Positions 13,510-31,151 of a stretch of 64,000 bases of DNA are shown one piece after another; the stretch's first letter is position 1, and each line of letters begins with the position of its first letter. The stretch comes from Paucibacter sp. KBW04 (lineage in GTDB: Bacteria > Pseudomonadota > Gammaproteobacteria > Burkholderiales > Burkholderiaceae_C): positions 62,724 through 126,723 of the forward strand of contig NZ_QAJN01000010.1 in NCBI RefSeq assembly GCF_003852425.1, given 5' to 3'. Both the position numbers and the translations under genes were made by a program. The notes beneath the pieces were generated by a model that was not told where the DNA came from, ran no database searches, and saw only the letters and a list, made by a program, of their open reading frames with translations.

Positions 13510-13726
13510 GGGGCTCCTTCTTGTTTTATTGGCGACTTGAATGCCTTCTGTGATCCAGAGGACCGAGGGCGCTTCTACGCCCCTATCTCCCGTTGCTGGC
13601 GAGTGGGCATGTCAGCTGACTGGTTTGTGTCGAAGCCGATGGACGGCACTTCCACCGCACGTCGATCAAGCTCGCGAAACGCCTTCCTGACCGGCCTTCC
13701 ATGGAGAGCAACTCCAAGGCGGCGGC

Positions 13727-15976: not shown

Positions 15977-16051
15977 TCGTGCCGAAGGGTCGCGTCGGGA
16001 GCATTTACAGATGAGGCCGGAGCGTCTTCGGCCCATCTTAAGGAGACCGAC

Positions 16052-16660
16052 ATGGAGGCAGGAAAAGGGCTGGGAGGTGGCGCACAGCAACGCGAAGGCG
16101 GAGGGGACCGCTTTCATCAGCGAGCCCAAGGCGCGGTAGAACGTCGCCAGGACGCGCAGGCGCTGGAGGACGACGAAGTCGAAATGATTGGCGACCTCGG
16201 CAACGAGTTCGACGATCCGGAGGGCTGGATGTCGGAGCACCCGGACTATTGGAAAGACCTTGGCGACCCACCGCTGCCGACTCGTGCCCAGTTGCTGCGC
16301 CACCGAATCGGCGAGTTCATCGCCTTGCTGCGCTCGTTCATGCCAGGCAGTGCTCCTGCCTGGCCCATCGAGCGAATTCCCGAAACTGTGTGGCGTCGAG
16401 CGGCTCATGAAGTGTTCGGACCTGATACGTTTCAGGACTACAGGTTCGATGCCGACTTGCGCGGCGCTGCTCAAACGCCGATGGCTGAGGACGGGCCGCA
16501 GCCCTCCAGCAATGGTGGGCAGGCCGGAGCGAAGACAGGCGAGACGCCTGACTTCGGGAATCCCGCGCGGCATGCCGAGCAAGTCGGCACCACGCCCAGC
16601 GATGCCAGCGGCATCGCCACAGACACTCCACCGCGAGCAGGAAGGCAACCGAAGCCATAA
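16052..16660 (+). CDS. Hypothetical element protein
   Basis: This is a 202-residue hydrophilic protein with no recognised domain. The start ATG at 16052 follows TAAGGAGA, a good ribosome-binding site. The middle (WMSEHPDYWKDLGDPPLPTRAQLLRHRIGEFIALLRSFMP) may form helices. Both ends are rich in Gly, Glu, Gln and Ala and likely unstructured. It lies between the coupling-protein gene and ardC in the same direction with short gaps, so it is probably part of the same transfer/establishment transcript. Confidence 0.6.
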   Translation: MEAGKGLGGGAQQREGGGDRFHQRAQGAVERRQDAQALEDDEVEMIGDLGNEFDDPEGWMSEHPDYWKDLGDPPLPTRAQLLRHRIGEFIALLRSFMPGSAPAWPIERIPETVWRRAAHEVFGPDTFQDYRFDADLRGAAQTPMAEDGPQPSSNGGQAGAKTGETPDFGNPARHAEQVGTTPSDASGIATDTPPRAGRQPKP

Positions 16661-16716
16661 GCGGGGAGCAGCGGCGCCAGCTATCCAACAAAAAACAATA
16701 AGAACAGGAGGCAGCC

Positions 16717-17754
16717 ATGGAGGCAGTCCAAGAAGTGCCGCAGGGAGGCGACGTTAGATTCAACGTGAAGCAGCAAGTCGCCCAGACCCTGATCGCAGCG
16801 ATGGAGAAGGGCGACACGCCATGGCAGCGGCCATGGGACGTGCAATCGGGTTCATCGTTGAACCCAAAAAATCCAACCACAGGCAATGCATACCGGGGCG
16901 TGAATCGCATCCTGCTTGCCATCGCCGGAACGGGATATGGCTCAAACCTTTGGTTGACATACCAACAGGCCGCAGCCAAGGGCTGGCAAGTCAGGAAAGG
17001 CCAGAAAGGCACCATGATCGTGAAGGTCGTGGACTTCGAGCGCAATCGAGCTGGCGTCGAGGGACGCCCGGCTGCTGCCAATGAGGGCGGCAGCGCGGTT
17101 GGCTCCAAAGAAGCGGAGCAAGAGCCAGCAATGGGTAAGGCGCTCAGGCGCTACTGGGTCTTCAATGCTGAGCAGATCGAGGGCATGCCACAACCAGAGG
17201 CGAAGCCGGAGCGTGACTTCGAGCCTGTTGAGCGAGCTGAGGCGGTAATGCAAGCCCTGATCGAAAAGACTGGCTTGATGGTCATCCATGGCGGCAGCAA
17301 GGCGTGCTACGTGCCTGCCCATGACGAGATCCGATTGCCGCCCAAGAATGCATTTCATTCGGCATACGACCTATGGGCGACAAAATTGCATGAGGCAGCC
17401 CACTCGACCATGGCGGAACATAGGTTGAACAGGACGGAGGCTTATGCCAAACGGTGGGGCGATTCCGCCTATGCGCTCGAGGAACTGACTGCTGAGATCG
17501 CGTCGGCCATTTTGGCCAGCGAAACCGGCGTGCCTATGAGCCAGGACCCCAAGCATGTCCAAAGCCATGCGAGTTACCTGCGGTGTTGGATCAAGGCGAT
17601 CCAGAACGATCCCCAGGCGGTCTTCACTGCGGCGAAGAACGCCGACCGCATCTGCGAATACCTGCTTGGCTTGGTTCAACAAAGGATGGTGATCGAGCCG
17701 CACAAGGAATGGATTGAAGAATACGAAGCGACACCCATGGCAAGGAGGGCCTGA
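16717..17754 (+). CDS. ardC: ArdC-type antirestriction protein
   Basis: This 345-residue protein has two domains. An N-terminal ssDNA-binding domain of the DUF1738/ArdC-N type (MEKGDTPWQRPW, NPTTGNAYRGVN, YQQAAAKGWQVRKGQKGT) precedes a C-terminal zincin-like domain with HExxH (KLHEAAHSTM) and a downstream Glu helix (EELTAEIASA). ArdC proteins coat incoming single-stranded DNA and protect it from host restriction during conjugation. The start follows AGGAGG at the ideal distance. An unusual low-complexity insert of about 30 residues sits between the domains. It is followed after one base by a small gene. Confidence 0.88.
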   Translation: MEAVQEVPQGGDVRFNVKQQVAQTLIAAMEKGDTPWQRPWDVQSGSSLNPKNPTTGNAYRGVNRILLAIAGTGYGSNLWLTYQQAAAKGWQVRKGQKGTMIVKVVDFERNRAGVEGRPAAANEGGSAVGSKEAEQEPAMGKALRRYWVFNAEQIEGMPQPEAKPERDFEPVERAEAVMQALIEKTGLMVIHGGSKACYVPAHDEIRLPPKNAFHSAYDLWATKLHEAAHSTMAEHRLNRTEAYAKRWGDSAYALEELTAEIASAILASETGVPMSQDPKHVQSHASYLRCWIKAIQNDPQAVFTAAKNADRICEYLLGLVQQRMVIEPHKEWIEEYEATPMARRA

Positions 17755-17755
17755 T

Positions 17756-18076
17756 ATGAAAACCAATAGCGACAAATCGATCAAGCAATCTCACGTAGCA
17801 GACGGAGCGATGGGGCAGTCGGTCCGGGAGGCATGCATCAACATTGCCGACAGCGACGAGCCCTTGCTCTTCATCGAAGGGCACGACAACGCGATCATTG
17901 GCGTCACCGAGCGCGGCGGGGTGGCTCTTATCGTTTACGACAGCGAGAAAATTCTGCGGCGATTGAGGAAGCGAGACGGCATGTCCAAGGATGATGCCGA
18001 AGAATTCTTCGCCTACAACATCTACGGTGCATGGAGAGGGGAGCAGACGCCAATATTCGTTGCGAAGATTAGGTGA
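17756..18076 (+). CDS. Small hypothetical protein downstream of ardC
   Basis: This is a 106-residue acidic protein starting two bases after the ardC stop codon. AAGGAGG in the end of ardC (about 17741-17747) serves as its ribosome-binding site. The sequence (EPLLFIEGHDNAIIGVTERGGVALIVYDSEKILRRL, then MSKDDAEEFFAYNIYGAWRGEQTPIFV) resembles small proteins carried by phages and plasmids that begin with a beta hairpin. I cannot name the family. Tight spacing suggests coordinated expression with ardC, perhaps in establishment of the element. Confidence 0.6.
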   Translation: MKTNSDKSIKQSHVADGAMGQSVREACINIADSDEPLLFIEGHDNAIIGVTERGGVALIVYDSEKILRRLRKRDGMSKDDAEEFFAYNIYGAWRGEQTPIFVAKIR

Positions 18077-18084
18077 GTCTCGAT

Positions 18085-18112
18085 AAAGGCTGGAAGGAGT
18101 CAACCGGCCTTT
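18085..18112. terminator. Bidirectional terminator between convergent operons
   Basis: AAAGGCTGG (18085-18093) pairs with CCGGCCTTT (18104-18112) with one G-T pair and a 10-base loop. It separates the plus-strand transfer genes from the minus-strand methylase operon. Confidence 0.65.
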
Positions 18113-18128
18113 GTCTTTGGCGGCTGGC

Positions 18129-19259
18129 TCAGAGCAAGTGGGACAACGCAGGAAATCCGAGCATGAACGTGTCGTTCTTCCACTCGCTGTCCATCGCGGT
18201 GATGCGGTGGATGAACGCGTTGCTCACGTCGTCGGAGTAGTCGATGAGCCCTCGCAGCAACTCGAAGGTTTCGGTCTGCGCGGCGCTCCACGCCTTTTTG
18301 CGCGCCAGCAGCTCCGGCAGCCGATGCTTCTCGACGAAATCCTCATACTTGCCGATCAGGCCCACCGTCACGTCAGCTAGCTGGATGCCCGGGTCGGTTT
18401 TGGAATCTGAGAACCGATAGTCGATGTCCTGCGCGCGCTGCTTGAAGCCGTCGGTGCCCAAGCTCTTCTCGACTTGGATTTCACGATCGAAGACATGCGT
18501 GGCGTTTTTGAACAGCAGGACCGGCATGGTGAAGAACGAGCTGAAGCTGCCAATGAGCACATCGGCGTCGTTGCCTTCAAGGAACGGCAGTTCGGTCAGC
18601 GCCGTGGCCTTCCTCACCATCTCCTTGAGCAACTCGGTGGGCAGATTGACAGCCCCGGGGCTGTGCAGTGTGAGGAACGCGTCCACGTCAGCAATGAAGC
18701 TGCCCACCTTGCCGATGGGGATGCCGGGGTAGCCGTGGCGCCGCATCAAAGCCAGGAATGCAGGCTTGTCCATGCAGGCGATGCGGTATAGCTCGTTTTT
18801 CATCTCGCGCCGCGCGTGGCTGAACGCCTCGAAGCGCTTGCTGGCGATGATCGAGTCGACGATGTCCACGATGGACCAATAGACAATGTTGATGCTCGAG
18901 TAATGAATCGCCAGCCTGTGCTCGGTCAGCCAGGCCAAGAAGCGCGCCATCTTGTGCGACGCAAGAGCAGCCTCGAAGTCGCCGCTGGCGATGTGTTTGA
19001 ACTTGATCTCCGGCGCGTTGACCTGCATGCCCAGGGCCTCGCGCAGTGGCGCGATGTCTGGCAAGGCTTGACCCTCTTGAAGCACGATGCCGCCGAGGAC
19101 GAAGTTCTTGTGCTCATTGACGTTTGTCCCCGCGTCGGTCAGCGCGAACTTGCGGATGTTGTTTGTCTCATCGTAGAAGAAGGCGAACTTGTCGTCGGCC
19201 CGGCGGATGCCGTGGACCCCGATCATCATGGCTCGCATCTCACCCCAGTCGAACGCCAT
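18129..19259 (-). CDS. DUF3800-domain protein (RNase H-fold, defence-associated)
   Basis: This is a 376-residue protein with the marks of DUF3800: an N-terminal FAFFYDETNN strand with paired acidic residues and a C-terminal GIQLADVTVG helix. DUF3800 proteins are predicted to have an RNase H-like fold with acidic active-site residues, and they often sit among phage-defence genes; no biochemical role is firmly known to me. The ATG at 19259 follows AAGGGA. It is the last gene of the methyltransferase operon, 14 bases after the truncated gene before it. A nuclease or nucleic-acid-binding role in that system is inference. Confidence 0.75.
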   Translation of the reverse strand: MAFDWGEMRAMMIGVHGIRRADDKFAFFYDETNNIRKFALTDAGTNVNEHKNFVLGGIVLQEGQALPDIAPLREALGMQVNAPEIKFKHIASGDFEAALASHKMARFLAWLTEHRLAIHYSSINIVYWSIVDIVDSIIASKRFEAFSHARREMKNELYRIACMDKPAFLALMRRHGYPGIPIGKVGSFIADVDAFLTLHSPGAVNLPTELLKEMVRKATALTELPFLEGNDADVLIGSFSSFFTMPVLLFKNATHVFDREIQVEKSLGTDGFKQRAQDIDYRFSDSKTDPGIQLADVTVGLIGKYEDFVEKHRLPELLARKKAWSAAQTETFELLRGLIDYSDDVSNAFIHRITAMDSEWKNDTFMLGFPALSHLL

Positions 19260-19273
19260 GTGAGTCCCTTGTC

Positions 19274-19801
19274 CTATTGGCCTAGCACCATTGCAGTCTG
19301 AGGCAGAACCTCTTGTCGCCCAACGCGCAGGTCGAGGGCGTCCATCTCTTCAAGCGTCTGAGCGACAGACTCCACATAATCAGCATCGAAGTCGTCACGG
19401 TTCGCTTCTTCGTGCGTGCCCTTGTTCAAGTAAGTCCACACGAGGTTGACGGCCGGGATGCCCAAAATACGGCCATACGCAGCCAACAGCACTGGCTTGT
19501 TCGCGTGGTTGAAGGTCGCCGCGTCTTCCAGCCGTTTGCGTAGAGCGTCGCACAGGTTGCGAAGGCCTGGCTCGGCGCCGACGCCAGCGAGTTGCAAGTT
19601 GAGCATGCCCAGCTCGTGGCTACCGAGCCAGCGCCATACCTTCTCGGAAAGCACTTCGAGCCCTTGCCGGCACGCGGCCAAAGACTCTCGGTGGTCGAGG
19701 TTGTCCTTTGCCGCTCGGGCCTTCGCCACATAGTTCTTGATGGCGATGTTGCCGGAGACGCGGGGTTGGTAGTTGCCGGTGCCTTCCGGCGCAGTCCATG
19801 G
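19274..19801 (-). pseudogene. C-terminal remnant of a larger, possibly ATPase, protein
   Basis: The frame is open from 19801 (just after an in-frame TGA at 19802-19804) to the stop at 19274. The first possible start is a GTG at 19729, 24 codons in. Coding-quality sequence precedes that GTG (EGTGNYQPRVSGNIAIKNYV), so the protein looks N-terminally truncated. The remaining 150 residues are helical (LEVLSEKVWRWLGSHELGMLNLQLAG, RLEDAATFNHANKPVLLAAYGRILGI, WTYLNKGTHEE) and look like the end of an AAA/SMC-type ATPase or a HEPN-like helical domain. No Walker motif is present. Only 16 bases separate it from the stop of the methylase gene upstream. A functional short protein from the GTG is possible. 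Confidence 0.5.
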
Positions 19802-19817
19802 TCAACGCTCAGTGTGC

Positions 19818-22800
19818 TCAAACACCATAGAGGTTGGCGCAGGCGTCCTGGTAGGCGTCCCAGCCAGGCAGTTGCACAAGCGCCGCTCGAATCTTCGTCC
19901 GCCGCGTGATCATGTGCTTCTGAGGCGATAGCATAGGTTGCATGTCAGGTTGCGTGCGCCGGGTGGCCCATTCGGACAGCAACGCCTTGGTTGCATCAAC
20001 GATCGCTCGGTGGTCTGGGTTTGCCGCGTCAAACGCCGGAGTTCGATCGAATGCCAGCTTGTGGATATGGCGTTCGCCAAAGGCTCCGCGAGGCTGATGC
20101 GCCTTGATCACCTCGATGACGGCTTGGCTGTTTATCAACGCGGTGATGTAGATTGCCTCGTCCTCGGTCGCCACGCGCCCCCAATAAAGCGTCTGGTCGA
20201 TGACAGTCTTACCGCAAGGGATCTGGTCGCCGCGCACATACGCTGCGCACGGCAGCTTGCCGCCAGCCGAGGCGAATACCAGCCAGTCCTGGCCGGTCCA
20301 TCCTTGGCCAGACAGCTTTTTGCGGTCCGAATCCACCGTCTCGAAGAATTCATCGACGCTCTCGTTGATGGCAGTCAAGGCAGCTTTGATCGCGCCACCT
20401 GTCGCTCCGCCAAGCGCAGCGATCCCCGGTCCTGTGCGAGGCTCCCACCCGCCGGTCCCGTATCGAAACGGCAAAAGTCCTTTGGCGCCGGCGGCGAGCT
20501 CATACGGTGCCAAATGCTTTGAGATCAGCACGTCGAACATCACCTGGTCGCTAACGCTGTTTGCAGTCAGCGCGAAATCTTTAAGCCGATGGCCGTCCGA
20601 TCTGAGGAAGTAGAAGGGCGAGCCGGCGTTGATTGGCCCCAAGTTCCAACCCGCGCCGCTCTTTGCCGCTGCATGAAAAACGATGCCGCGAGGCATCACG
20701 TCGGCGCCTTGCCGAAACAGCGGCCCGATGGATTTCTTGGTCGCGACTTTCACGGCTGGCTCAGCGGGGGGCGTGGTGGTCCATGCAGTGCGGCCATTGG
20801 ATTTGATGATGTGGTAGGTCGTCGCAATCTCTGATGTTCTGCCTACGTCCCGTCCCGCGAAAGTCGTGGAGCCGCTAGGGTGCGACTTGGAGCCAAAGAG
20901 CACGATTGCCTCGTTTTTGAAGGTCTGGTTGGCAATCTTCCAGATTTCGCCAGGAGCGAATTGCACGGGCTTGTTCGCCGTGAGGTAGCCGGCAGAGCGA
21001 AATGGCTCGTGGTGCGACCCGTTGAGCACCGTGTCCGGCAGGATGCATCCGATCACCGCACCCGGAGTCAAATAGCGTTCGACGGCGTGCAAGAGAAAGA
21101 TTGTTGCGATTTCCACATGCAAATGGGAAGAGCCTGGCGCTTTGATGCCGTGGAGATCAGACTTGGCTTTCAGCGCATCCTGATAGGGGTTGCTCGCGAT
21201 TTTGCTGAGAGTCAGCCATGGCGGGTTCGTCACGACTCCGTTGAACCGCCCCGCGACGAGAGCTGGCCGGAAACTGTTTCGGAGAACGAATGCCCATATG
21301 CCGTTGCGACCGGCGCGCTGGAGTTTCTCCAATGCACTGAGCAGCTTCTTGCAGAACTCGATCGAAGCGGCCCTTTCATCGATGGTCAGTGCGACCCCAG
21401 TGTCAGACAAAACAGCGTCCACCATCGTCTCGATGTCTTGATCGGTGAGCGTCGTGCTCGTTGCCGCTGCACTGCTCATCGCCATGTCATAGCCACGCGA
21501 GAGCAGGGCGTCGAATAAAGTCTGATTCGATGCAGTGATCAAAAACTGGGGGAGTTGGACCTCTTCCGTGTCGAGCGTGAGCTTGCGTTGTTCTTCGCCT
21601 GTCGCGCTAAACACCTTTGTCACCGGCGTGTTCGCAAGCAGCGAGTCGGCGTGATAGACGGGAATCTGGGCCTCGTGCCCTGCTGCGAGCCAATCCTTGC
21701 TGGCTAGCACCCAACCAACCTTGGCAAGCATCACAGCCAATGGGTCGATGTCGAATGCGGTGATCGCAGTAGTGAGTTCGCTAAGTGCAGCGGGGTCGCC
21801 TGGAACTCGGCCAGCAGCTCGAAGGCGCTGTTGAGCGCGCTTCACTGTTTCCACGATCATCGCTCCCGATCCGCAGCACATATCGATAAAGCGCGGCTGT
21901 TGTCCCTCGGGGAGTGCCGACATGACATGCTCGACAAGCTTACCAGCGAGCCAAGAAGGGGTCCATTCCTGCCCAAGCAGAAGTCGTTGCGATCGGGCCG
22001 CCAACTGCGCCATGAGTGTGCCAAAAAGGTCTTCGGCGGGGGACGATTCGAAATCGTAGGCGCGAAGATCGTTTTGAAGTTCGCGCGCGACGGCGACCAA
22101 GTCGCTTACATAGGGGCTGGCGTTGAGCCAACCGAAATAGTCATATTCGACGAGGTTGGGCAGCCCACGAGCTTTGAAGAATGAGCCGTCTAAGATCGCT
22201 TGCAACTCTGCGTTGTCGCTGATCAAGGCCCTCCCGTTCAGAACGTTGGCGCAAATGAGCTTGGCGAGGGTGAGGATGTAGAGTTCCCCGACATACGAAC
22301 CTTTGTCGAACTTGCCTGCAGCCGCGTCTCCACCCAAGTAGGAGACGAAGTCTGTCCAAAGCTTTGTGATCAAGCTGGCATAGGTGGGGTCATGGGCGAA
22401 CGCATGGTCCACAAGTGCATCAATCGGCTGGACGTGGGCTTGGCAAAAAGGGCTGTTAAAGCCCAAGTCCTTCGCGAGGGTGAGCGCGGCCAACAAGCGG
22501 CCACCCTCGCGGCCAAGATGGCGGACCAAAAAAGCCCCGAGCTTCTTCGCCTCGACATCGCCAGCTGCTGAAAGGTCGCATGATTCGATCTCGGCGAGCT
22601 CGATGTGCTCCGGGCCGAAGCTCGTGGCGCCAGGAACGGCAGAAAGGTCCTTGACTTCCGAGATGCCAAAGGCGTGCCATCGGACAGTGTCGGAGAGCAC
22701 GCCAACAAGCAAGTCGCGAGGTGTCCCCGCGTTGAGCTGGCCAGCGCAATATTGCTTCACCTGGTGGAGGCCGTGGGCAAAGGTGCCCAGCGCGTGCAAG

Positions 22801-23060
22801 TCCCTCTCGTATTCGATCACCGTGGCGCCCACGAGCACATCGACGAAACCATGCTTCTTGGCCCCGAGCTCGTGAAATTTTGCCAACGACTCCGTCCCGG
22901 TGACGTGAGCCTTGGTCCACCAAGGCTGGTCGGGAAACATCAACGGCAGCTTAGCTGAGAGCGCGTGCCGCAGCACATCCTCCGCCTTGCCTTCACGGAT
23001 GAGGTCGCTGGCTTCCTTCAGGAAAGCCTTCCCCTGCGCTTCAACATATTTCTCCATCAT
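19818..23060 (-). CDS. Large N6-adenine DNA methyltransferase with N-terminal PD-(D/E)XK-like domain
   Basis: This is a 1080-residue type IIG/ISP-like protein. Residues 60-110 show the PD-(D/E)XK pattern Asp74, Glu83-x-Glu85 and Gln100-x3-Tyr104, but the usual Lys is Glu85. A methyltransferase core follows, with SAM motif I FIDMCCGSGA (391-400), FDID about 436 and the catalytic NPPW at 612-615. The C-terminal part, with RGAFGERHIHKL near residue 1020, resembles TaqI/Eco57I target-recognition domains. The gene would modify adenine in a specific target and, if the nuclease domain worked, could also cut. It overlaps the upstream methylase gene by 20 bases, so the two are coupled. Two ATGs stand in tandem at the start. 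Confidence 0.85.
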   Translation of the reverse strand: MMEKYVEAQGKAFLKEASDLIREGKAEDVLRHALSAKLPLMFPDQPWWTKAHVTGTESLAKFHELGAKKHGFVDVLVGATVIEYERDLHALGTFAHGLHQVKQYCAGQLNAGTPRDLLVGVLSDTVRWHAFGISEVKDLSAVPGATSFGPEHIELAEIESCDLSAAGDVEAKKLGAFLVRHLGREGGRLLAALTLAKDLGFNSPFCQAHVQPIDALVDHAFAHDPTYASLITKLWTDFVSYLGGDAAAGKFDKGSYVGELYILTLAKLICANVLNGRALISDNAELQAILDGSFFKARGLPNLVEYDYFGWLNASPYVSDLVAVARELQNDLRAYDFESSPAEDLFGTLMAQLAARSQRLLLGQEWTPSWLAGKLVEHVMSALPEGQQPRFIDMCCGSGAMIVETVKRAQQRLRAAGRVPGDPAALSELTTAITAFDIDPLAVMLAKVGWVLASKDWLAAGHEAQIPVYHADSLLANTPVTKVFSATGEEQRKLTLDTEEVQLPQFLITASNQTLFDALLSRGYDMAMSSAAATSTTLTDQDIETMVDAVLSDTGVALTIDERAASIEFCKKLLSALEKLQRAGRNGIWAFVLRNSFRPALVAGRFNGVVTNPPWLTLSKIASNPYQDALKAKSDLHGIKAPGSSHLHVEIATIFLLHAVERYLTPGAVIGCILPDTVLNGSHHEPFRSAGYLTANKPVQFAPGEIWKIANQTFKNEAIVLFGSKSHPSGSTTFAGRDVGRTSEIATTYHIIKSNGRTAWTTTPPAEPAVKVATKKSIGPLFRQGADVMPRGIVFHAAAKSGAGWNLGPINAGSPFYFLRSDGHRLKDFALTANSVSDQVMFDVLISKHLAPYELAAGAKGLLPFRYGTGGWEPRTGPGIAALGGATGGAIKAALTAINESVDEFFETVDSDRKKLSGQGWTGQDWLVFASAGGKLPCAAYVRGDQIPCGKTVIDQTLYWGRVATEDEAIYITALINSQAVIEVIKAHQPRGAFGERHIHKLAFDRTPAFDAANPDHRAIVDATKALLSEWATRRTQPDMQPMLSPQKHMITRRTKIRAALVQLPGWDAYQDACANLYGV

Positions 23061-25125
23061 CGTTTCCTCCCTTTTTTGTGTTGTGTTTTGAGCGTCTTTC
23101 CTGTCCCGCGCGCGCGATTTGCAGCAATTCCTTGAATCCTTCGCGATCGCACCCGAGAGCTTCGCCCACCACGCAGTTGATGCTGTTCAGCACCGCTTCA
23201 ACTTCTGCGGGCTCGGCCATGGCAGCGAGCTCGTCGCCATGCAGTGAGAGCGTGCGAAGCTGCTCTTCATTGAACGCGGGAACGGGTAAGCGGCGCAGGT
23301 GCGCGGCTTCCACCTTCAGGGCGCCGCCGCCCATGACTGCTCCCGACGTCTCGATTACCGCCTGCGCCCAGGCGCTATTCATGAAAGCGAGCAAAGCAGC
23401 CGCGTTCCATTTGCTTAGCGGCAAAGTCCATATCGTCGAAAAGTTTGCGTCGATGAGGCATTGCCTAGCCTTGTTTAGGTAGGCCCTCGGAGTGGATGAG
23501 TTCACTCTCGCCAACAGAACGTCCGGCAAGTGCCTCGGCGCGAAGTCGGGCAACATATACCAATGTCGCGGCGGCATGCCGCGAGCCGCAGGCCTGATGT
23601 TTGGAAAGACGGCGGTGAGATTCCAAACCTTTTGTGGCTTTGCGTCAGTGCCGAAGTTGGCCTGTCCTGCCGCCCGAACTACCGCAGCAATTGACTCGGG
23701 CATGCGTTCATAGACCGTGGGAAACATGTCGACTTCGCCCAAGTCCTCCGGCAGCGCATGTTGTCTGAGGTCCAGCGCCCATCCCGTGGCGAGCTCAGTC
23801 GAGACGGCGAAGCCCGCCGGAAGCTCAGATTGCCGGCGAATGACGGGCCGAGCAACGCCTTCTGGTGCCTGTGCTGCCAATCCCGCCAGCGGGCCGGAAA
23901 AGGACAGCGCTATGTGCCCTGACGAGCGCGCGCCGTCGGCGTAGAAGAAGCCATTGGCTCCGGTGCGCAGGCCCTGGCCAACGCCCACGCCCTGCGACTC
24001 CAACGTGGAGAAGGAGGGGGCGATGCCCTGGCGGGTAAGCCACTCATGAATCTCGTGAGAGACGTAGATGCCTTCCGACGCTTGACTGCTTGTTTCGCCG
24101 ATGGCTGCGAACCACTTTTGCCTCGATGCGGCTGCAATCATGTTTCTGCATGCGAGCTTCATCGACGCGGGACGCGCGCGAGCGAGCCCTGTGGGGTGGC
24201 TCGCGCCATTGCGAAGCCACGATCGCGCTTGTTTTGCGAAATCTCGCTCTGGTCTCGATCCTCCGGCAAGTGCGATTCGCCCAATGGGGCTCTCCGGGCT
24301 GGCCGCAGCGGCGGAGATCAAGATGTGGCAGTAGGTGGAGCTGTTAGCTCGCACAAGAGCCGACGCGCGCCGCTTCACCCGCTTGGCCACGATGAGCGTC
24401 GTCTTGATCTGGGCGTCGTCGAACCAAGAGGCATGCTCGTCTTCAACGATGAACTCAATATCGAACCATCGGAACAACAGGTAGTGCACGATAGTCGCGT
24501 AGTCTCGCGTCAGCCACGACTCAGGCACCACCAACGCCAAACGGCCGCCAAGCTTTACGAGGCCGGCGCAAAGAATCCAGGAGGGAACTGCTAGGTCGGA
24601 CAGGCCGGAGTAGCCGCTGATGAGGTGCGCGAACAGGCGTTTGTCTTCCGCGTCGAGAGCAGAGAGCCTTGGCAAGGTTTGCAACAGCCCGGTCCGAATT
24701 TGCATCGCGCTCGGAAGAAAACGGTCAACCTCTGCTTTATCTGAGAACGACTGATATCGAACATAGGGAGGATTGCCAATCACCAAGTCCCACTCCGTCT
24801 TTGGCAGGAGCGAGATGGTGTCTGGGTCGAAAGCGCTCCCGAGAATGCAGTCGGCCTGCGGCAATCGGTTGGAGCACGCGTCTCGAGCGGCACGGTCGAT
24901 TTCGATGCCAGCGATCAAGGCCGGAGCGGCGCCAATTCCCAGGCACGAAGCCAGCAGATCGCCAGACCCAGCCATAGGATCGATGATGCTCTCAGCCTTC
25001 TCCGCTTGGGCCAACGCGGCGAGGATGCGGCCCAGGCCCACGCCGGTGAAGTATTGACCCAGGCGTTTGCGGCGCTCCGCATCTGGCGTGTGGCTAGCAG
25101 TCGGGGGCTGGTTAGCCTGGCTCAT
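23041..25125 (-). CDS. Eco57I/TaqI-like N6-adenine DNA methyltransferase
   Basis: This 694-residue gamma-type methyltransferase opens with RLGQYFTGVGLGRILAAL, the usual N-terminal entry of type I/IIG methylases. SAM motif I IIDPMAGSGD (47-56), acidic motif II (GIEID, about 73-77) and the catalytic NPPY (118-121) follow. The C-terminal 350 residues contain a TaqI-C-like recognition domain (MGGGALKVEAAHLRRLPVP). No nuclease domain is visible. The start overlaps the stop of the preceding methylase gene by four bases (ATGA), and its own end overlaps the next gene by 20, which argues for fixed stoichiometry. It probably supplies self-recognition in a restriction or defence system. Confidence 0.87.
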   Translation of the reverse strand: MSQANQPPTASHTPDAERRKRLGQYFTGVGLGRILAALAQAEKAESIIDPMAGSGDLLASCLGIGAAPALIAGIEIDRAARDACSNRLPQADCILGSAFDPDTISLLPKTEWDLVIGNPPYVRYQSFSDKAEVDRFLPSAMQIRTGLLQTLPRLSALDAEDKRLFAHLISGYSGLSDLAVPSWILCAGLVKLGGRLALVVPESWLTRDYATIVHYLLFRWFDIEFIVEDEHASWFDDAQIKTTLIVAKRVKRRASALVRANSSTYCHILISAAAASPESPIGRIALAGGSRPERDFAKQARSWLRNGASHPTGLARARPASMKLACRNMIAAASRQKWFAAIGETSSQASEGIYVSHEIHEWLTRQGIAPSFSTLESQGVGVGQGLRTGANGFFYADGARSSGHIALSFSGPLAGLAAQAPEGVARPVIRRQSELPAGFAVSTELATGWALDLRQHALPEDLGEVDMFPTVYERMPESIAAVVRAAGQANFGTDAKPQKVWNLTAVFPNIRPAARGMPPRHWYMLPDFAPRHLPDVLLARVNSSTPRAYLNKARQCLIDANFSTIWTLPLSKWNAAALLAFMNSAWAQAVIETSGAVMGGGALKVEAAHLRRLPVPAFNEEQLRTLSLHGDELAAMAEPAEVEAVLNSINCVVGEALGCDREGFKELLQIARAGQERRSKHNTKKGGNDDGEIC

Positions 25126-26918
25126 CGGTCTGCGGAGGGCATAGGGCCTGAACTGGCCTCTGCGCGCGCAAGGGCATAGAAGGCCTTCGCGTCCATCTCG
25201 ATGTCACGGCCAAGCTGCAAGCACTTGCCGACGAATTGCGAATAGAGTAACTGCGGATCAGAAAGCGAGCCATTGCCGGCATCTCGAATCACTTCCGCTG
25301 CGATCTTGGAACTCGTCTTACCAACTGCCCGATCCAGCCGGCGCTTCGACAGCAACAACAATGGATCGCCTTTGACTGAGACGGTGGAGACGACCTGCTT
25401 AAAGCTTGCTTGAATCTTGTCCAGGACGCTCGTGGCTTCGACTGTGAAGCCAGCAGTCGCATAGGCCTGCGCAAGCGCCCGCCAAACCTCCGAGTGCGCG
25501 GAGTGAAATACCACTGTCGCCAAGCCTTCTGGTTTGAGCACGCGCGAAATGTCTTTGAAGACGCTTGCCATCATTGCTCCATATTCCAACACGCCTTTGG
25601 ACTGCGAGGGGCTCACGATCACTTCGCGAGCGCGGTCAGTCGTCTTGCCAAGCCAATGCTCGTTGATCTGATTGAGCTCCGCGTAGGGGATGTAGGCGCC
25701 GAAAGGAGGGTCTGTGAAGACGTAGTCCACCGAATGAGGTTTTAGCGGCATGCTTTCACTGGTGCTGTTGTGGACGACAACCGTGCTTCTGCTGCCATGA
25801 AGCAGGTGGAAGGAGTCGATGAATGCTTTGGACTTGCGTCGCACGCCTTCAAGAATGTTTTTCTCCACCGGCAGTCCGCTGATGTAAAGCACGCCGCTTT
25901 GCGACCCAGTGAGAACGAAGTCGCTCTGCCCCTTTTTGAGAACCACGCGGGTCATGAGCGTTGAGTGGCTCGAGTTGTAGCTAAGGACCAGCAGTCGCAA
26001 TGCGTCGCGCACGTGCTCTGGGAAATCGGCGGCGAGATCAAAAAGTGTCGCCATCGCGATGAAGTTGCGCTTCGTGTAGAAGTGATGAAGCTTCTCGATG
26101 CCGACGTGATAGCCAGTGCGGCGCAGCTCGCCCCAAACAAGATCGGCGTTGGGCGCGGACTTCGGCAGTTTCGCTTTGGCGATTCGCGCGAGGACTGCGT
26201 GGTCTTCGGGCGTGGGCGGACGCTGCCATTTCGCGGACCCGGTCCGGCCATGCACTCGCGCGATCACGCGTTTCTTTGTCAGCTGCTTGCGTCCAAATGC
26301 GTCTAGGGACGATTCAAGCGCTCGCTCGCAGGCTCCGACCGGGACCTGTGTCCGGCAGCTCTTGCAACGGAAAGTGTCCGACATGCTCAGTGGCTTTGTC
26401 TTCACGCTCGCGTCCCACAGCGAGACTTCGTTGCCGCAGTGTGGGCAAACAAGCATTTCGGACCAGATCATGTGGCGCAGAGTTCCGGGAGAGCCGCTCG
26501 CGTCCTTCGCCTCGTATAGCCAGGAAAGCTTTTCTTCTGCGCGTCGGCACAGCTCATTGACCGCCGCTGCGAATGTCTCCGGCTCTGGCGGGCGGCATAG
26601 AGTTTCTGATACGAACGCGCCCAATGTGCCGATTTCAAAAAGATGGGCGGTGCGTGGTCCCCACTTCGGCGTGATTCCGAGCGCGTCGGCCATGCGGCGC
26701 ATCTCATCGGTGGGACGATCGCACAGCAGTGTCGCGAGCCCTGTGGTTCCGCTTCCTGCAAATGCATCGAGCACGGTCGCGCCTGGCTTAGTGTGCGCGG
26801 CAATGAAGAGGGCAATGACCTCGGGCGAGATTTTCGTCGGATAGGAAAAAGCGTTGTAAAGCGGTCCCGTGCGCGTTGATGGCAAGGGAGTTCTGTAAAG
26901 GTCGGCGATGTTTGCCAC
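25122..26918 (-). CDS. COG1743-like DNA methyltransferase with zinc ribbon
   Basis: This is a 598-residue methyltransferase of the amino-MTase superfamily with motif I first: VLDAFAGSGTTG (49-60) and the catalytic DPPF in DYVFTDPPFGAYIPY (403-406). Between them is a four-Cys zinc ribbon (CPHC 158-161, CKSC 185-188) and a basic linker that may contact DNA. The order and the N-terminal RTGPLYNAFSYPTKISPE resemble the COG1743/DUF1156-type enzymes found in defence clusters. The GTG start at 26918 has no strong ribosome-binding site. It is the first methylase of the operon, 81 bases after a small regulator-like gene, and is coupled by ATGA to the next. Confidence 0.82.
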   Translation of the reverse strand: MANIADLYRTPLPSTRTGPLYNAFSYPTKISPEVIALFIAAHTKPGATVLDAFAGSGTTGLATLLCDRPTDEMRRMADALGITPKWGPRTAHLFEIGTLGAFVSETLCRPPEPETFAAAVNELCRRAEEKLSWLYEAKDASGSPGTLRHMIWSEMLVCPHCGNEVSLWDASVKTKPLSMSDTFRCKSCRTQVPVGACERALESSLDAFGRKQLTKKRVIARVHGRTGSAKWQRPPTPEDHAVLARIAKAKLPKSAPNADLVWGELRRTGYHVGIEKLHHFYTKRNFIAMATLFDLAADFPEHVRDALRLLVLSYNSSHSTLMTRVVLKKGQSDFVLTGSQSGVLYISGLPVEKNILEGVRRKSKAFIDSFHLLHGSRSTVVVHNSTSESMPLKPHSVDYVFTDPPFGAYIPYAELNQINEHWLGKTTDRAREVIVSPSQSKGVLEYGAMMASVFKDISRVLKPEGLATVVFHSAHSEVWRALAQAYATAGFTVEATSVLDKIQASFKQVVSTVSVKGDPLLLLSKRRLDRAVGKTSSKIAAEVIRDAGNGSLSDPQLLYSQFVGKCLQLGRDIEMDAKAFYALARAEASSGPMPSADR

Positions 26919-26999
26919 GGGTGATTGATTCTTTTGGTTGTCGACCTCTTGCGAGTCCGAATGGACGCAGGCCGCTTCTCGTTCGAGGCTCGTATCCCG

Positions 27000-27221
27000 T
27001 CAAGCCACGGCTTTGACGTGCTGCTTGTTAACGGCTCGCGCGCGAGCCGCTCGCTCGGTGGGAAGGGCAATGTCTTTGGATTCGCAAAACCCTGCGACGA
27101 GCACTTCAAGCATATTGACCATGCTTCTTTGCTCATGGTCGGCAGCAGCTTTCAAAGCTAGCTTGAAAGATGGCGAAACACGTAGATTCAGCGTGTCGCT
27201 TTTTACGTCATCGAATCGCAT
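27000..27221 (-). CDS. Small ribbon-helix-helix-like protein
   Basis: This is a 73-residue protein with a strand-helix-helix pattern: SDTLNLRVSPSFKLALKAAADHEQ, then SMVNMLEVLVAGFCESKDI. This is typical of Arc/CopG/MetJ-type DNA-binding proteins and of antitoxins. An alternative ATG at 27248 adds nine residues; neither start has a clear ribosome-binding site. It lies 81 bases upstream of the first methylase on the same strand. A palindrome at 27258-27274 just upstream could be its operator. It most likely represses the methylase operon (inference). Confidence 0.6.
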   Translation of the reverse strand: MRFDDVKSDTLNLRVSPSFKLALKAAADHEQRSMVNMLEVLVAGFCESKDIALPTERAARARAVNKQHVKAVA

Positions 27222-27257
27222 GGGATAGCCCCGCAAGTGTCTGTGCATTTGCGGTAT

Positions 27258-27274
27258 TCTAGCTGCGCGCTAGA
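27258..27274. promoter_or_regulatory. Palindrome upstream of the RHH gene, candidate operator
   Basis: TCTAGC (27258-27263) and GCTAGA (27269-27274) are perfect inverted arms around TGCGC. They lie 37 bases upstream of the ATG at 27221, where a promoter for the methylase operon is expected. RHH proteins bind such short palindromes as dimers of dimers. Confidence 0.4.
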
Positions 27275-27362
27275 GTCGGTCATTTGGGGGGCTAGGGCTG
27301 CCAATTGCTTGGCGCGTGTGGTTTGTCGGTAGCCTCAATCGTGCAATGTTTAGTGGGATGGG

Positions 27363-27938
27363 CTATCTGGCTTCATTAAGCCTGCACTGCAGTGCCATCT
27401 CGTAGGCCTTCTCGAAATGAGGCGCTAGCGGACGCTCCAGCGACTGATGCTGTGCGATCACGGTAGGCTTGTCGGAGTCCCCAAGGCGGCCTTTGAAGAT
27501 CAGCCAGGAAAACAGATGCGGCGTGGTTTGCGTGAGGGCGTGGCCTGAATCCACGGCCAGCTTGCGCGCCTTTTTGTCGTCGGTGATGACAGCTTGGCCG
27601 ATTTTCATGGCGAAGGCGATGGACGACAGCTCGCCCTTGCCAAGCCTCTTCCTGCTTTCAAGGAGTTTTATGGCCTGCAAGTCCCCGATGTCGCAGGAGT
27701 GGGCGGCGAATCCGCCACGAGCCTGTTCTTGTGTAAGCCGTCGCATCAGTTCTGTCTCAGCCGGAGTCGGGGCTTTTCTCGGCTTGGTCAGGCATTCGTA
27801 GCGGACGAAGCTGGTGACGCAGAACTCGCAGCGAGCCTCTTTGGCGGCGGCGTGTAGTCGAGCCGAGGACAGCACGTTCCATACGGAACAGGTGTCGGCG
27901 ACATTGATCAGATGGAATTTCGATGGATCAATGGCCAT
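27363..27938 (-). CDS. PIN-domain ribonuclease-like protein
   Basis: This 191-residue protein has the acidic residues of the PIN fold: Asp in NVADTCSVWN (about residue 15), Glu in RYECL (about 48), Glu in GKGELSSIAFA (about 102) and the pair in VITDDKKAR (about 117). PIN proteins are metal-dependent RNases and are often toxins. The ATG at 27938 overlaps the end of the XRE/ImmA gene by 11 bases, so the two form an operon with the regulator first. XRE-ImmA proteins paired with PIN-like proteins are common in islands and may act as toxin-antitoxin or stress-response modules. RNase activity is inferred from the residues. Confidence 0.72.
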   Translation of the reverse strand: MAIDPSKFHLINVADTCSVWNVLSSARLHAAAKEARCEFCVTSFVRYECLTKPRKAPTPAETELMRRLTQEQARGGFAAHSCDIGDLQAIKLLESRKRLGKGELSSIAFAMKIGQAVITDDKKARKLAVDSGHALTQTTPHLFSWLIFKGRLGDSDKPTVIAQHQSLERPLAPHFEKAYEMALQCRLNEAR

Positions 27939-29070
27939 GAAGCGTCCGGTTATAGAGGGAAGCCAACTCAGCCAACTCGCCGTGGCTGCAGAGCAGGGCT
28001 TCGGCCAGTCGGCCGACGCTGATCACACCTGCGCTGAAGCCGTCGAAACATAGGCCAACGTAAAAATCCGAAAGGCCGAGTTCAAGGAGGTGGGCCTTGC
28101 GCTGACGCTGTGTGGCGTTGAGGCTCTCGGGAAGCTCGGGGTCGATCTTGGCCTCGCGCGGCACGCGCAATCGGCGAATGCGGTCGTAATTGCCTTGGTC
28201 GATGAGCTTGGCCTCTTTGAGGGCGATGGCAAGCGCGACGCAGCTCACGCGCAAATCGTTTGCCCACCGCTGCGCGTCCGCGTCGCTCCACTGATTCGGC
28301 GGAGGCATCTTCCTCAGGAATTCGGGCGGCATCAAGAAGCACGATGCGAAGCGATTGGCGCGAAGCTCCAAGTAATCCGACCCGCTGGGGCCATCGAAGC
28401 TGACGCTGGCGCCTTGCGCGGAGTCGAAGATGGCATGGGCCATTTCATGGGCCGCGCTGAATCGCTGGCGGTAAATGTCCTCGCTGTGGTTGACCAAGGC
28501 GCACTTGCCGGCGACCGGATGCATGATAAAGAGGCCGGATATGTTCGAGTTCCCCAGCTTGCGGCGGAACATATGCACTCCGACGCTGCGAAACTCCGCG
28601 TAGACATCGCGAGGAACCGCGCGATCATCATGGCCCAGGGCGGTCCGCAATCGTGCGGCGGCGGCTTCACCGTGACCTTTGAAGTAGTCGCCGCTGGGTG
28701 AGAAGGCAAAGTCCTTGGGCGGGCGACCAAGCTCTCGCATCAAGAAGTCTTCCGTCTCGCACAGGTAAAGGAAGTCTTGGACAGCTCGGCGGTCTTCTTT
28801 TGTGAAGTCGTTTCCATGGGCGCGATAGAGCGTCTCGGTTTGCTCGAACGGCGCGACCTGTTCGTTCGAGATGAAGAACTTGAAGTCGCAGCGGTAATGA
28901 TCCGCCAGGATCAGCACGTCGTCGCCCGAGGGTTCGACCTGGCCGGCTTCGATTGCCGCCAGTCGTGCGGCGTCAATGCCGGTCGCGGAGGCGACCTCAA
29001 TGGTGGACTCCTTGAGCTGTCCACGATATTTGGCGAGTTTGGAGCCTAGGGCTTTGAGGTTGATGGCCAT
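27928..29070 (-). CDS. XRE-ImmA/IrrE family regulator-metallopeptidase
   Basis: This is a 380-residue protein. The N-terminal XRE helix-turn-helix (KESTIEVASATGIDAARLAAIEAGQVEPS) is followed by an ImmA/IrrE (DUF955) zinc peptidase domain with FSAAHEMAHAIFD carrying HExxH at about residue 210. Such proteins bind DNA and cleave or sense a partner, as ImmA does with the ICEBs1 repressor and IrrE with DdrO. The ATG at 29070 has GAGAG upstream; a TTG at 29079 is an alternative. It is translationally linked to the PIN gene downstream and probably controls it. Confidence 0.85.
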   Translation of the reverse strand: MAINLKALGSKLAKYRGQLKESTIEVASATGIDAARLAAIEAGQVEPSGDDVLILADHYRCDFKFFISNEQVAPFEQTETLYRAHGNDFTKEDRRAVQDFLYLCETEDFLMRELGRPPKDFAFSPSGDYFKGHGEAAAARLRTALGHDDRAVPRDVYAEFRSVGVHMFRRKLGNSNISGLFIMHPVAGKCALVNHSEDIYRQRFSAAHEMAHAIFDSAQGASVSFDGPSGSDYLELRANRFASCFLMPPEFLRKMPPPNQWSDADAQRWANDLRVSCVALAIALKEAKLIDQGNYDRIRRLRVPREAKIDPELPESLNATQRQRKAHLLELGLSDFYVGLCFDGFSAGVISVGRLAEALLCSHGELAELASLYNRTLHGH

Positions 29071-29148
29071 TACTCTCAATCATAGGTGCAGGACTGCTGA
29101 CCTAACGCCAGGCGATTTCGACGTTATGGGCAAACCGCAAGATTGCCT

Positions 29149-29739
29149 TTAAGAGCGAGGGGCGTAGTTCCGGACTCGTTCAACTTCGACGAGCTTGCGC
29201 CAATCAACGGTGAATTCGCTCTCGCCAAGCCAGTTGGCGCTATGGGCTGACGGCCCAGCGATGATCGATTCAACGGGCGCGTTGGTTCGCAAAATCACGC
29301 CGCCTCGGCCTTCAGCATTCCATCCGCTTGCGAACATTCGAGCCGTCTCTTCCTTGTCGCTCCATGCGGAGCCGATCCTGCCCGCTTCCAAGCGGTCGAT
29401 GTTTTCACCTCGATAAAGGATCATTCCGGGACCTTCAAAACGCGGGAGCCAGACCCAGAGCATGTCGAGCAGAAGCTCATCGTCGTCCACAAGTTCGCGG
29501 ATGAAGTGGTGGGACACATGCCACTGGGTATGGAAGCGTTCAGCGATTGCGAGGTCTCTGGGCGGACATGCGATCAAGCTCTTGAACAAGGCTCGCCATT
29601 TAGTTCGATGCTGAGCGACCTCAGGGCTGCGTAGCATCGGGCCGTAGTGCTTGCCATCCAGGATGTGTTCCAGCAGAGGTGGGTAACCGCTGAGTGCGGC
29701 GGCGATGCTTGGCAGCATCAAATGGTTCCCGACAGCCAT
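29149..29739 (-). CDS. ADP-ribosyltransferase-like protein
   Basis: This 196-residue protein has what look like the three ADP-ribosyltransferase motifs in order. Arg110 lies in MILYRGEN, the Ser-x-x-Ser strand in GSAWSDKEETARMFA (124-127) and the catalytic ExE in LGESEFTVD (Glu173, Glu175). This R-S-E arrangement fits cholera-toxin-like or ART-type enzymes, which transfer ADP-ribose to proteins or nucleic acids. The N-terminal 100 residues are helical. The ATG at 29739 lies 22 bases after the stop of an acidic gene, so the two probably form an operon. This is a fold assignment by eye and needs structural support. Confidence 0.5.
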   Translation of the reverse strand: MAVGNHLMLPSIAAALSGYPPLLEHILDGKHYGPMLRSPEVAQHRTKWRALFKSLIACPPRDLAIAERFHTQWHVSHHFIRELVDDDELLLDMLWVWLPRFEGPGMILYRGENIDRLEAGRIGSAWSDKEETARMFASGWNAEGRGGVILRTNAPVESIIAGPSAHSANWLGESEFTVDWRKLVEVERVRNYAPRS

Positions 29740-29761
29740 TGCAGGTGAGCCTGTCGCATGA

Positions 29762-30481
29762 TCAAGCCTTGGCGCCAGCAGTGGTCCCAATGGCTTTCTT
29801 AAACGTTGCGACCAACGACTTGACCCGTTCACCGGCCTTCGCGCGGGTGGCGCTGTCCACGTCGAACCCATCGAGAAATGCCTCTGATGAGTCGACGAGG
29901 AAATACGTCGTCATGACGGCTAAGTCTGGGTCTCCCGTGGACTCTGGATTGAGGAACGTGAATTCGGTTTCAATTGCAGCGAACTGTTCGTCGTCAGCCC
30001 CTAGGCTGCATCCCAGGGCCAATCCAACGGCTTGCATGTTCTGAACGGCAGCCGCTTCGAAGCCGTCTTCACGCTCATATCGTTTCTTGAACCTGGCAGC
30101 CAAGTCTTTGGGGATGTTGTCTAGGAAATCACTGACTGCATGTTGAAGCTCAGCCGTATCGTCCTCCGACTCATCTTCGCTTTCGCCAGAGTTTCCGGTG
30201 ATCTTGCCTGCGTCCTCGGTGTCGAGGACCTCTTTGCCATTCAAGAATTCTTCGAGCCATCGGTCTGCGCTCTCTTGGGGGCCATGGCCTTCATAGACGC
30301 CTTCGAGCCATTCTGCGTCTCCGATGTAACGCACGGCCTTGAATGCCTCATCCACGGAGGTGCCAATGGCCCACCCAGGAAGTTCGACGCCGTCCAGGTG
30401 CCCACCGAGTTGGAGCTCGACGAGCAATTGGCACACTGAGTCCATCGCAGGGATGTGCGTCATTCGTCTTTTCATCGCCAT
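29762..30481 (-). CDS. Acidic hypothetical protein, partner of the ART-like gene
   Basis: This is a 239-residue protein of unknown family. The ATG at 30481 follows GGAGG at a good distance. A central Glu/Asp/Ser-rich linker (GESEDESEDDTAEL) separates two helical parts; the second (LDNIPKDLAARFKKRYEREDGFEAAAVQNMQAVG) may be a small helical domain. Strong acidity and position immediately before the ART-like gene are compatible with an immunity or antitoxin role, but nothing in the sequence proves it. Confidence 0.55.
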   Translation of the reverse strand: MAMKRRMTHIPAMDSVCQLLVELQLGGHLDGVELPGWAIGTSVDEAFKAVRYIGDAEWLEGVYEGHGPQESADRWLEEFLNGKEVLDTEDAGKITGNSGESEDESEDDTAELQHAVSDFLDNIPKDLAARFKKRYEREDGFEAAAVQNMQAVGLALGCSLGADDEQFAAIETEFTFLNPESTGDPDLAVMTTYFLVDSSEAFLDGFDVDSATRAKAGERVKSLVATFKKAIGTTAGAKA

Positions 30482-30749
30482 AGGTTGCCTCCGTTGTTTT
30501 CACATTCTCGTGGAAATGGGGGTGGGGCTTGCGCGGCCCGCCTGCGAGTTCTAAGTCGTCTACTGCTTGGGCATGGAGGAAGGTCCGGGAGCCGATCTAG
30601 CGGCCCGGCATCAAGCTGGCCAAGGTCGGCGAGATGCTGCTCGAATTGCCCCGGCCAGCCATAGCAATTCGAGCTCGATCTAGGCGAGCCGGAAACTGAG
30701 CAATTGGGTTCGATCGAAAGTCGAGCTGGCCAGGCCAGCCGGGTTGAGA

Positions 30750-31106
30750 TCAGTCGGAGAAGACCATGGCGCGCCTGCCTGCCAAGCCGGTCATGGCGAT
30801 CAACGCCACCTCAAACGCAAACATCGCGAAAGCTCGAGTGCAGGGCAACCAGACAAGAAGAAATGCGATGGCCGCTAGGCTCGCCCTGAGCGCCAATGAG
30901 GCAGGGGCGATGGGGGGCGAGGCCGCTCCTGCGGCCCTGTGAGCGGGGCGGATCGAAGGCGCGAATGCGATGTCTATGCAAAAGATGGTGGTGCACCCCA
31001 GCGCAACTTCGATACGGCCAAAAGCCGCTGACGGGTCGATCCATGGGGCGGCGGCAAACGCGACGCTCAGAACCAAAAGCGATGGAAGGGAGTATGGAAT
31101 TTTCAA
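30750..31106 (-). CDS. Small four-segment membrane protein
   Basis: This is a 118-residue hydrophobic protein with four predicted membrane segments: LPSLLVLSVAFAAAPWI; VALGCTTIFCIDIAFA; LRASLAAIAFLLVWL; and FAFEVALIAMTGLAG. The start is a TTG at 31106 with no ATG available and no clear ribosome-binding site, so the call is moderate. It lies 45 bases downstream of the M48 protease gene on the same strand. It could anchor or be a substrate of that protease (inference). Confidence 0.45.
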   Translation of the reverse strand: MKIPYSLPSLLVLSVAFAAAPWIDPSAAFGRIEVALGCTTIFCIDIAFAPSIRPAHRAAGAASPPIAPASLALRASLAAIAFLLVWLPCTRAFAMFAFEVALIAMTGLAGRRAMVFSD

Positions 31107-31151
31107 CGCGGGCCTCTGTCTGAGGCCATTCCAGCGCGCCGGCCATGAAAG

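Follow-up and report, generated by a model that had tools for sequence, protein, structure and literature searches.

Some type IIG-like restriction enzymes have one companion methyltransferase, as is the case for Eco57I, and others have two, as described for BpuSI in the accessible part of PMC4081073. RM.BpuSI by itself was reported to methylate weakly, stable clones being obtained only with both companions (PMC3817140, available text). A different family of methyltransferases belongs to the type 3 bacteriophage exclusion (BREX) systems. Their hallmark is a Zn-finger insert, which according to the accessible sections of PMC12839542 is also present in the DUF499 (BR) systems and has no homologs elsewhere. 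The locus that we compare to these systems was found in a stretch of 64,000 nucleotides of Paucibacter sp. KBW04 (NZ_QAJN01000010.1, positions 62,724 to 126,723; hereafter the window), where three genes on the minus strand, named M1, M2 and M3, encode DNA methyltransferases and are headed by a small gene for a ribbon-helix-helix (RHH) protein. We consider it rather likely that these genes form a self-contained, type IIG-like restriction-modification (R-M) cassette, in which M3 is served by two companion methyltransferases. It is the anatomy of the locus that suggests the cutting of DNA, its specificity and a role in phage defence.

The open reading frames (ORFs) of the window confirmed a preliminary description of the locus in that the three genes are dissimilar, overlap by 4 bases (M1/M2) and 20 bases (M2/M3), and carry a DPPF, an NPPY and an NPPW motif, respectively (Table 1). 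On basis of these motifs, all three enzymes are presumably of the adenine (N6) type. Pfam matched N6_N4_Mtase and a zinc ribbon in M1, Eco57I/N6_Mtase in M2, and Eco57I/N6_Mtase in M3, in the last case both below threshold. M3 had been described as a methylase, which holds for the part with NPPW, but the protein is more than that because an N-terminal nuclease-like domain is present. More specifically, its layout consists of the nuclease-like domain, a helical linker, the methyltransferase and a putative C-terminal target-recognition region, so that a gamma-class methylase, a recognition part and an extra N-terminal domain are combined in one chain, as in type IIG/IIC enzymes. The small RHH-like protein indeed leads the operon. 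Its match to HicB (PF05534) is sub-threshold (E = 0.0027), and the gene is kept in five of the other loci that were compared (L020-L024; L-numbers denote loci other than the window).

Table 1. Features of the window, in order of position
Feature	Positions	Strand	Remarks
TrwC relaxase	6769-9669		
Tyrosine integrase	9988-11220		
TraG/VirD4-like gene	13727-15976		named from reading the sequence
DUF3800 gene	18129-19259	minus	PADLOC PDC-S51; neighbour, not part of the cassette
SMC/RecF-like ATPase remnant	19274-19781 (ORF 19274-19729)	minus	only the C-terminal end is left; adjacent to the cassette but outside it
M3	19818-23060	minus	1080 amino acids; type IIG-like fusion; gamma-class methyltransferase part, NPPW at 612-615
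C-terminal target-recognition region of M3	19821-20900	minus	residues 721-1080; putative, from type IIG organisation
Nuclease-like domain of M3	22656-23060	minus	residues 1-135; E57, D74, E83-Y-E85, Q100
M2	23041-25125	minus	694 amino acids; gamma-class N6-adenine-type DNA methyltransferase by motif, Eco57I-like; NPPY at 118-121
M1	25122-26918	minus	598 amino acids, GTG start; beta-class N6-adenine-type DNA methyltransferase by motif; DPPF at 403-406
Four-cysteine Zn ribbon of M1	26355-26447	minus	C158, C161, C185, C188; invariant in 11 of 11 alignment rows, 3 of them BREX-3 PglX
Small RHH/HicB-like regulator gene	27000-27221 (or to 27248)	minus	heads the operon
Putative RHH operator	27231-27254	minus	imperfect palindrome, inverted repeat
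Putative -10 hexamer of the cassette promoter	27256-27261	minus	TAGAAT; 9 of 12 consensus matches together with the hexamer at 27283

The arrangement of the three genes is conserved in other genomes. In all 15 fetched loci with a full-length M2, M1 is located upstream and M3 downstream of it. These loci are the window itself; a Hymenobacter plasmid, on which M1 is split between two frames (L019); genome G311, of the same family as the window (L020); Stenotrophomonas maltophilia (L021); Buttiauxella izardii (L022); a metagenome-assembled genome of the Comamonadaceae (L023); Variovorax ginsengisoli (L024); Escherichia coli (L081, L082 and L084, the first two being near-identical with 1 base different across the three genes); and five viral contigs (L085, L086, L087, L110 and L113). 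The closest copy is that of L020, in which M1, M2 and M3 are 95, 91 and 96% identical to those of the window, and the lowest identities, found in the viral copies, are 47, 34 and 38%. Moreover, the pairwise distances of M1, M2 and M3 correlate at 0.99 over 13 loci (L019 was excluded for its split M1 and L082 as a near-copy of L081), a value that was reached in none of 2000 permutations. A full-length relative of M2 outside the operon was not found in the family, order and E. coli genomes or the viral contigs that were searched. The exceptions to the co-occurrence are two viral contigs (L148 and L149), where M1 (44%) is followed by no more than ~33 codons from the start of M2, next to a gene that is integrase-like; these are decayed copies of the cassette. 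Since the same order recurs in 15 of the 15 loci, the arrangement is not a matter of chance neighbourhood, and the earlier proposal that the three enzymes constitute one system agrees with both this order and the strict co-occurrence across the fetched loci.

The limits of the cassette could be derived from the DNA. A BLASTN comparison of window positions 17000-33500 with L020-L023 yielded one block, which starts at 27257 (27268 in L023), at the operator, and ends at 19817-19820, the stop of M3; L020 is the exception with an end at 19775. The more distant L024 aligns as two pieces inside the same limits. Because the homology is bounded by the operator palindrome and the M3 stop (or at most 45 bases beyond), the cassette is operator-RHH-M1-M2-M3. 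It is complete in the window, at odds with the earlier idea of a partly decayed system; the truncated gene on which that idea was based lies outside.

The putative operator, CCGCAAATG-CACAGA-CACTTGCGG, shares its core AAATGCACAGACA with all RHH-bearing loci (6 of 6), and in each of these a TANNAT hexamer immediately precedes it. The core was not found upstream of M1 in the four RHH-less loci tested. Within the window the operator pattern has one match, and none in 100 shuffles. The DNA upstream of the operator is mostly different between the RHH loci, L021 and L022 being alike there. The RHH protein itself is 73-84% identical in L020-L024, and the in-frame ATG at 27248, an alternative start of the gene, falls inside the operator. 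By tblastn the gene was not found in the Hymenobacter, E. coli and viral copies; L110 and L113 have another small gene in its position, of the XRE type from reading the sequence.

The effector of the cassette is probably M3, through its nuclease-like domain. The first ~135 residues of the protein contain a PD-(D/E)x(K/E)...Q motif, and we take the pattern of residues to be that of PD-(D/E)xK nucleases with a QxxxY-like motif. E57, D74, E83, Q100 and Y104 are invariant in all ten rows of an alignment, seven of which are type IIG-like plasmid proteins. In a set of 21 N-terminal sequences D74 is found in 21, E83 in 20 and Q100 in at least 19, position 85 being E in 15 and K in 6. A glutamate replacing the lysine has precedent in BamHI. 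The ratio of non-synonymous to synonymous substitution rates (dN/dS) versus L020, L021 and L023 is 0.025-0.099 for residues 1-135, comparable to the 0.05-0.07 of the methylase part, and is highest of the four parts compared in the C-terminus (0.12-0.17). M3 matches 76 plasmid records, 3 of which cover at least 80% of it.

In structure prediction, type IIG enzymes are among the fold matches of M3. Its AlphaFold2 model (predicted local distance difference test, pLDDT, 84; predicted template modelling score, pTM, 0.72) matched the folds of MmeI (1.9e-13), BREX BrxX (2.5e-13), DrdV (3.1e-13), BpuSI (3.7e-12) and many CamA entries. In the PDB, a sequence search with M3 returned no match, and a deeper M3 profile found RM.BsaXI (2.6e-14) and MmeI, within the methylase part. 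When the nuclease part was modelled alone (pLDDT 82, residues 57-73 below 50), the fold search was non-significant; DrdV headed its ranking (E 0.063, probability 0.93), with a DrdV chain of 146 residues in third place (probability 0.69) and BpuSI at rank 20.

The layout of the cassette has a known precedent in BpuSI; its unusual part is M1. This protein matches the PADLOC profile PglXI with 375 bits (residues 15-518 on 110-615 of 919) and shows 24-31% identity to the methyltransferase encoded in each of four loci annotated as BREX-3. DPPFG is invariant, like the Zn ribbon, in all 11 alignment rows, three BREX-3 proteins among them. The ~300-residue C-terminal region of BREX-3 PglX/BrxXI is missing, and by these similarities M1 is a trimmed relative of the BREX-3 methyltransferase. 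The cassette thus places a BREX-3-type methyltransferase, Zn-finger insert included, outside both BREX and the DUF499 (BR) systems, the two settings in which the 2026 survey (PMC12839542, accessible part) had found that insert. The novelty of this setting is softer than that part of the survey suggests: M1 is also matched, Zn-ribbon region included, by two PADLOC 'MTase_II' profiles (type II methyltransferase; 194-221 bits), and therefore need not be the first with such an insert outside BREX. An M1-like gene (31%) without annotated BREX genes in its vicinity is present on a plasmid of Paenarthrobacter. Searches of the PDB with M1 and M2 found chiefly methyltransferases, plus zinc-finger and other weak matches.

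M1 is homologous to BrxXI, four-cysteine Zn ribbon included, but the operon contains no other BREX gene. Indeed, BREX-3 BrxF, a BrxC-type ATPase, a helicase and PglZ were all lacking among the PADLOC matches of ten window proteins, and no named BREX gene was found in the three E. coli regions viewed, where the YjhR helicase upstream in two looks unrelated. The methylation-associated defence system (MADS; set MAD1-8, with MAD2 as its methyltransferase) gave only weak mad2 matches (NCBIfam, 16-20 bits versus a cut-off of 720). The signatures of Druantia and of the defence island system associated with restriction-modification (DISARM) are a helicase with DUF1998 or large signature proteins; neither was matched among the PADLOC matches listed for the same ten proteins. 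Membership of BREX, MADS, DISARM or Druantia was rejected, the matches being limited to single proteins. A search of titles and abstract openings, with subscription papers mostly beyond reach, retrieved no description of a three-methylase operon. The combination of an RM enzyme with two methylases is known from BpuSI, as far as the available sources on it go.

The likeness to BpuSI, as it appears from the accessible parts of PMC4081073 and PMC3817140, resides in the presence of one bifunctional RM protein and two separate methyltransferases; M1 and M2 accompany M3 in each of the 15 fetched loci. The differences are in the parts: the companions here are a beta-class enzyme similar to that of BREX-3 (M1) and a gamma-class enzyme resembling Eco57I (M2), and M3 shares only part of the fold of RM.BpuSI (11% identity; query template modelling (TM) score 0.28). 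Another comparison is with single-gene type IIG plasmid enzymes, for example those of Rhizobium Q54, Methylocystis and Rhodococcus, called BseRI-like here after the annotation in one record. The seven proteins viewed have the same N-terminal motif as M3 and align over 58-93% of it with 22-28% identity. These seven loci have no homolog of M1 or M2 within 6 kb, or up to the end of the record, on each side; in two of them (L036 and L038) another annotated methyltransferase is nearby.

Several observations weigh against the R-M reading. The motif of M3 has a glutamate where most PD-(D/E)xK nucleases have a lysine. None of the library profiles on M3 names the N-terminal domain a nuclease, and the best PADLOC match, type IIG with 164 bits, covers residues 283-688 only, leaving that domain outside. 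The best match of the whole model is a plain methyltransferase, M.BseCI (2e-14), and the type IIG superpositions are partial because the query TM-scores are 0.28-0.39. The fold search with the isolated nuclease part gave no match at E <=0.001, nor did a sequence profile of this part find a solved nuclease in the PDB up to E 10. The RHH gene is absent from 9 of the 15 loci, and the companions of BpuSI are one N6A and one cytosine enzyme (PMC3817140, available text), whereas all enzymes of the cassette are adenine-type by motif. Finally, a phospholipase D (PLD) nuclease of the same type as the restriction enzyme NgoFVII is encoded at 9198-10283 in the viral L085 and L086 and overlaps M3 by 7 bases (Pfam, L085 copy). 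It may be an extra or replacement effector, and its position beside M3 in two viral copies could mean that M3 alone does not cut. A PLD-family gene is also located 3' of the M3 relative in L035.

A non-cleaving exclusion of the BREX or Pgl kind would fit part of these data. The N-terminus of M3 would then be a dead or DNA-binding nuclease fold, and the methyltransferases would mark self, unmarked DNA being blocked in another way. The descent of M1 from the same family as BREX-3 PglX (the 375 bits to PglXI, the common Zn ribbon and DPPFG), the BrxX folds among the matches of M3 and the glutamate at the usual lysine position all agree with it. Nevertheless, we hold this scenario to be unlikely: BrxC/DUF499, PglZ and BrxL-like genes are absent from the cassette, the three E. 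coli loci that were viewed have an operon of three genes only, the residues of the motif have been retained in the clade, where dN/dS is low, and single-gene relatives such as L035 likewise have E at the position in question. In L081 and L082 a helicase (YjhR) and a phosphorothioate-dependent restriction gene are found upstream, past transposase genes; both are absent from L084.

In the R-M reading, M3 would bind a DNA site, probably an asymmetric one, via its C-terminal region, and would either methylate adenine or cut nearby DNA with the N-terminal PD-(D/E)x(K/E) domain. M1 and M2 would act as companion adenine methyltransferases that maintain methylation of the site in the host DNA, each probably serving one strand, such that incoming unmethylated phage or plasmid DNA would be cut. 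The RHH protein would bind the operator just after the -10 box and time expression like the controller proteins of other R-M systems. A stricter variant, in which M1, M2 and M3 form one complex with a shared site, DNA is spared only when it bears all three marks and M3 does the cutting, strikes us as improbable. If true, such an obligate three-methyltransferase machine would represent a link between the modification enzymes of BREX and type IIG restriction.

The genes that follow M3 in the window had been taken as parts of the system as well, in a composite defence where DUF3800 is the effector and a decayed gene lies between it and the three methylases. The genes are head to tail in the window, and the DUF3800 protein (PF12686, 9.7e-07) corresponds over its full length to PDC-S51 of PADLOC (388 bits; residues 1-366 on 1-369 of 376), a phage-defence candidate by itself; in a model made by others, DUF3800 has an RNase H fold (PMC10910872, accessible part). 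The middle gene is indeed truncated, the fragment being the last ~155 residues of an SMC-like ATPase, which is intact after M3 in L020 (916 amino acids, 85% identity) and matches the remnant in a separate BLASTN segment; L020 thus provides the full-length gene in place of the remnant that the preliminary description had proposed to look for. The break in the window is a few tens of bases past the M3 stop. However, within the stretches fetched, the other 14 loci with M1-M2-M3 include none with DUF3800 and one with the ATPase (L020), and both genes are also found in places where the cassette is missing. Among plasmids, 46 records match the ATPase (coverage of 80% or more in 19 of them), and the six regions viewed lack M1, M2, M3 and DUF3800 (one of them extends only 3 kb upstream). 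For DUF3800, relatives were found in 147 plasmid records (coverage of 80% or more in 119), and the three regions viewed are without the cassette and the ATPase; at the ATPase and DUF3800 loci in the family genomes the flanks were too short to judge the neighbours. Moreover, the DNA homology among the loci ends at the M3 stop or at most 45 bases beyond. The composite model is already contradicted by this gene content and is highly improbable: DUF3800 as effector and the truncated gene as component were rejected on gene content and cassette boundary, and PDC-S51 is a separate single-gene candidate. The ATPase of L020 (15424-18174) belongs to a stand-alone plasmid family of SMC-like ATPases with weak similarity to LmuB (Lamassu).

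The three genes travel together on plasmids, genomic islands and probable prophages of bacteria that are not closely related. In the window an integrase, a relaxase and a TraG/VirD4-like gene are nearby, so that an integrative mobile element probably carries the cassette region as cargo. Positions 6769-17754 of the window hold mobile element genes, among them a TraG/VirD4-like and an ArdC-like gene that were identified by inspection of the sequence only, and the genes scanned beyond 33 kb look chromosomal. Such a setting raises the possibility of self-protection, with conjugative elements and prophages carrying three methyltransferases of different specificity to conceal their DNA from the restriction enzymes of the host, and the nuclease domain of M3 being vestigial. 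In line with this, 12 of the 15 loci (the window, L019-L021, three E. coli and five viral loci) belong to a plasmid or viral contig or have an integrase, relaxase or transfer gene close by, the vestige of an integrase is present in L022, and the ArdC-like gene would be an antirestriction gene; L023 and L024 were not counted as mobile. Loose protection, however, does not need strict co-occurrence, a fixed order, overlapping genes or a kept nuclease motif, and the E. coli copies are on chromosomal islands. We regard self-protection as unlikely. The cassette often adjoins island integrases. In the three E. coli loci viewed, M3 is followed by an integrase gene and tRNA-Leu, and the vestige in L022 (after 8317), 3' of M3, is the end of an integrase that is intact beside M3 in L021.

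Other genes were noted next to the cassette. Directly upstream in the window (27363-29079), a sub-threshold PIN protein overlaps an XRE/IrrE-like (Peptidase_M78) protein, likely a pair of the toxin-antitoxin type. McrBC-type modification-dependent restriction genes come right after M3 in L113 (14384-17918, ORF reading) and L024 (15340-18979, Pfam). On the viral contig L087 a QueC-domain protein is encoded downstream of M3 (9986-12106), possibly a DNA-modification gene.

The cassette is true, and widespread yet rare. Full-length M2 was found in 2 of 399 family genomes, including that of the window (16 further matches were short, at most 33 bits), and in 1 of 200 order genomes, the window's own (76 others short, at most 41 bits). 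Full-length M3 was found in 1 of 398 phylum genomes, again the window's own, four others having distant partial relatives (best 107 bits). A pattern search yielded 13 stretches, with 5 relatives in 4 loci. Among 5426 complete E. coli genomes four match M1-M2 by blastn at word size 11, and none by megablast; the three viewed also have M3, the fourth (genome H141) being left out of the fetched set. A close M3 alignment had no match in viral contigs. A wider one gave 25 loci, and tblastn on 15 of these (L100-L109 excluded) found 3 with M1-M2-M3 and 12 with an M3 relative only. The viral scan with M2 produced 23 loci, of which 6 are real, 3 of them contigs already seen and 1 cut by the contig end (L115); the other 17 are short generic stretches (3 checked). 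With M1 there were also 23, of which 5 are contigs already fetched and L115 is listed again; L150-L152 look like BREX-3 from their ORFs, L153-L159 are without M2 or M3, which is all they were checked for, and L160-L164 are outside the loci examined. Phage records contained a single weak M3 match.

In sequence records the parts of the cassette go under separate names ('DNA methyltransferase', 'N-6 DNA methylase' and 'hypothetical protein'). Taken as a unit, they add a mobile R-M family from two host phyla (Pseudomonadota and Bacteroidota) and viral contigs, and the E. coli copies make the system directly testable in laboratory strains.

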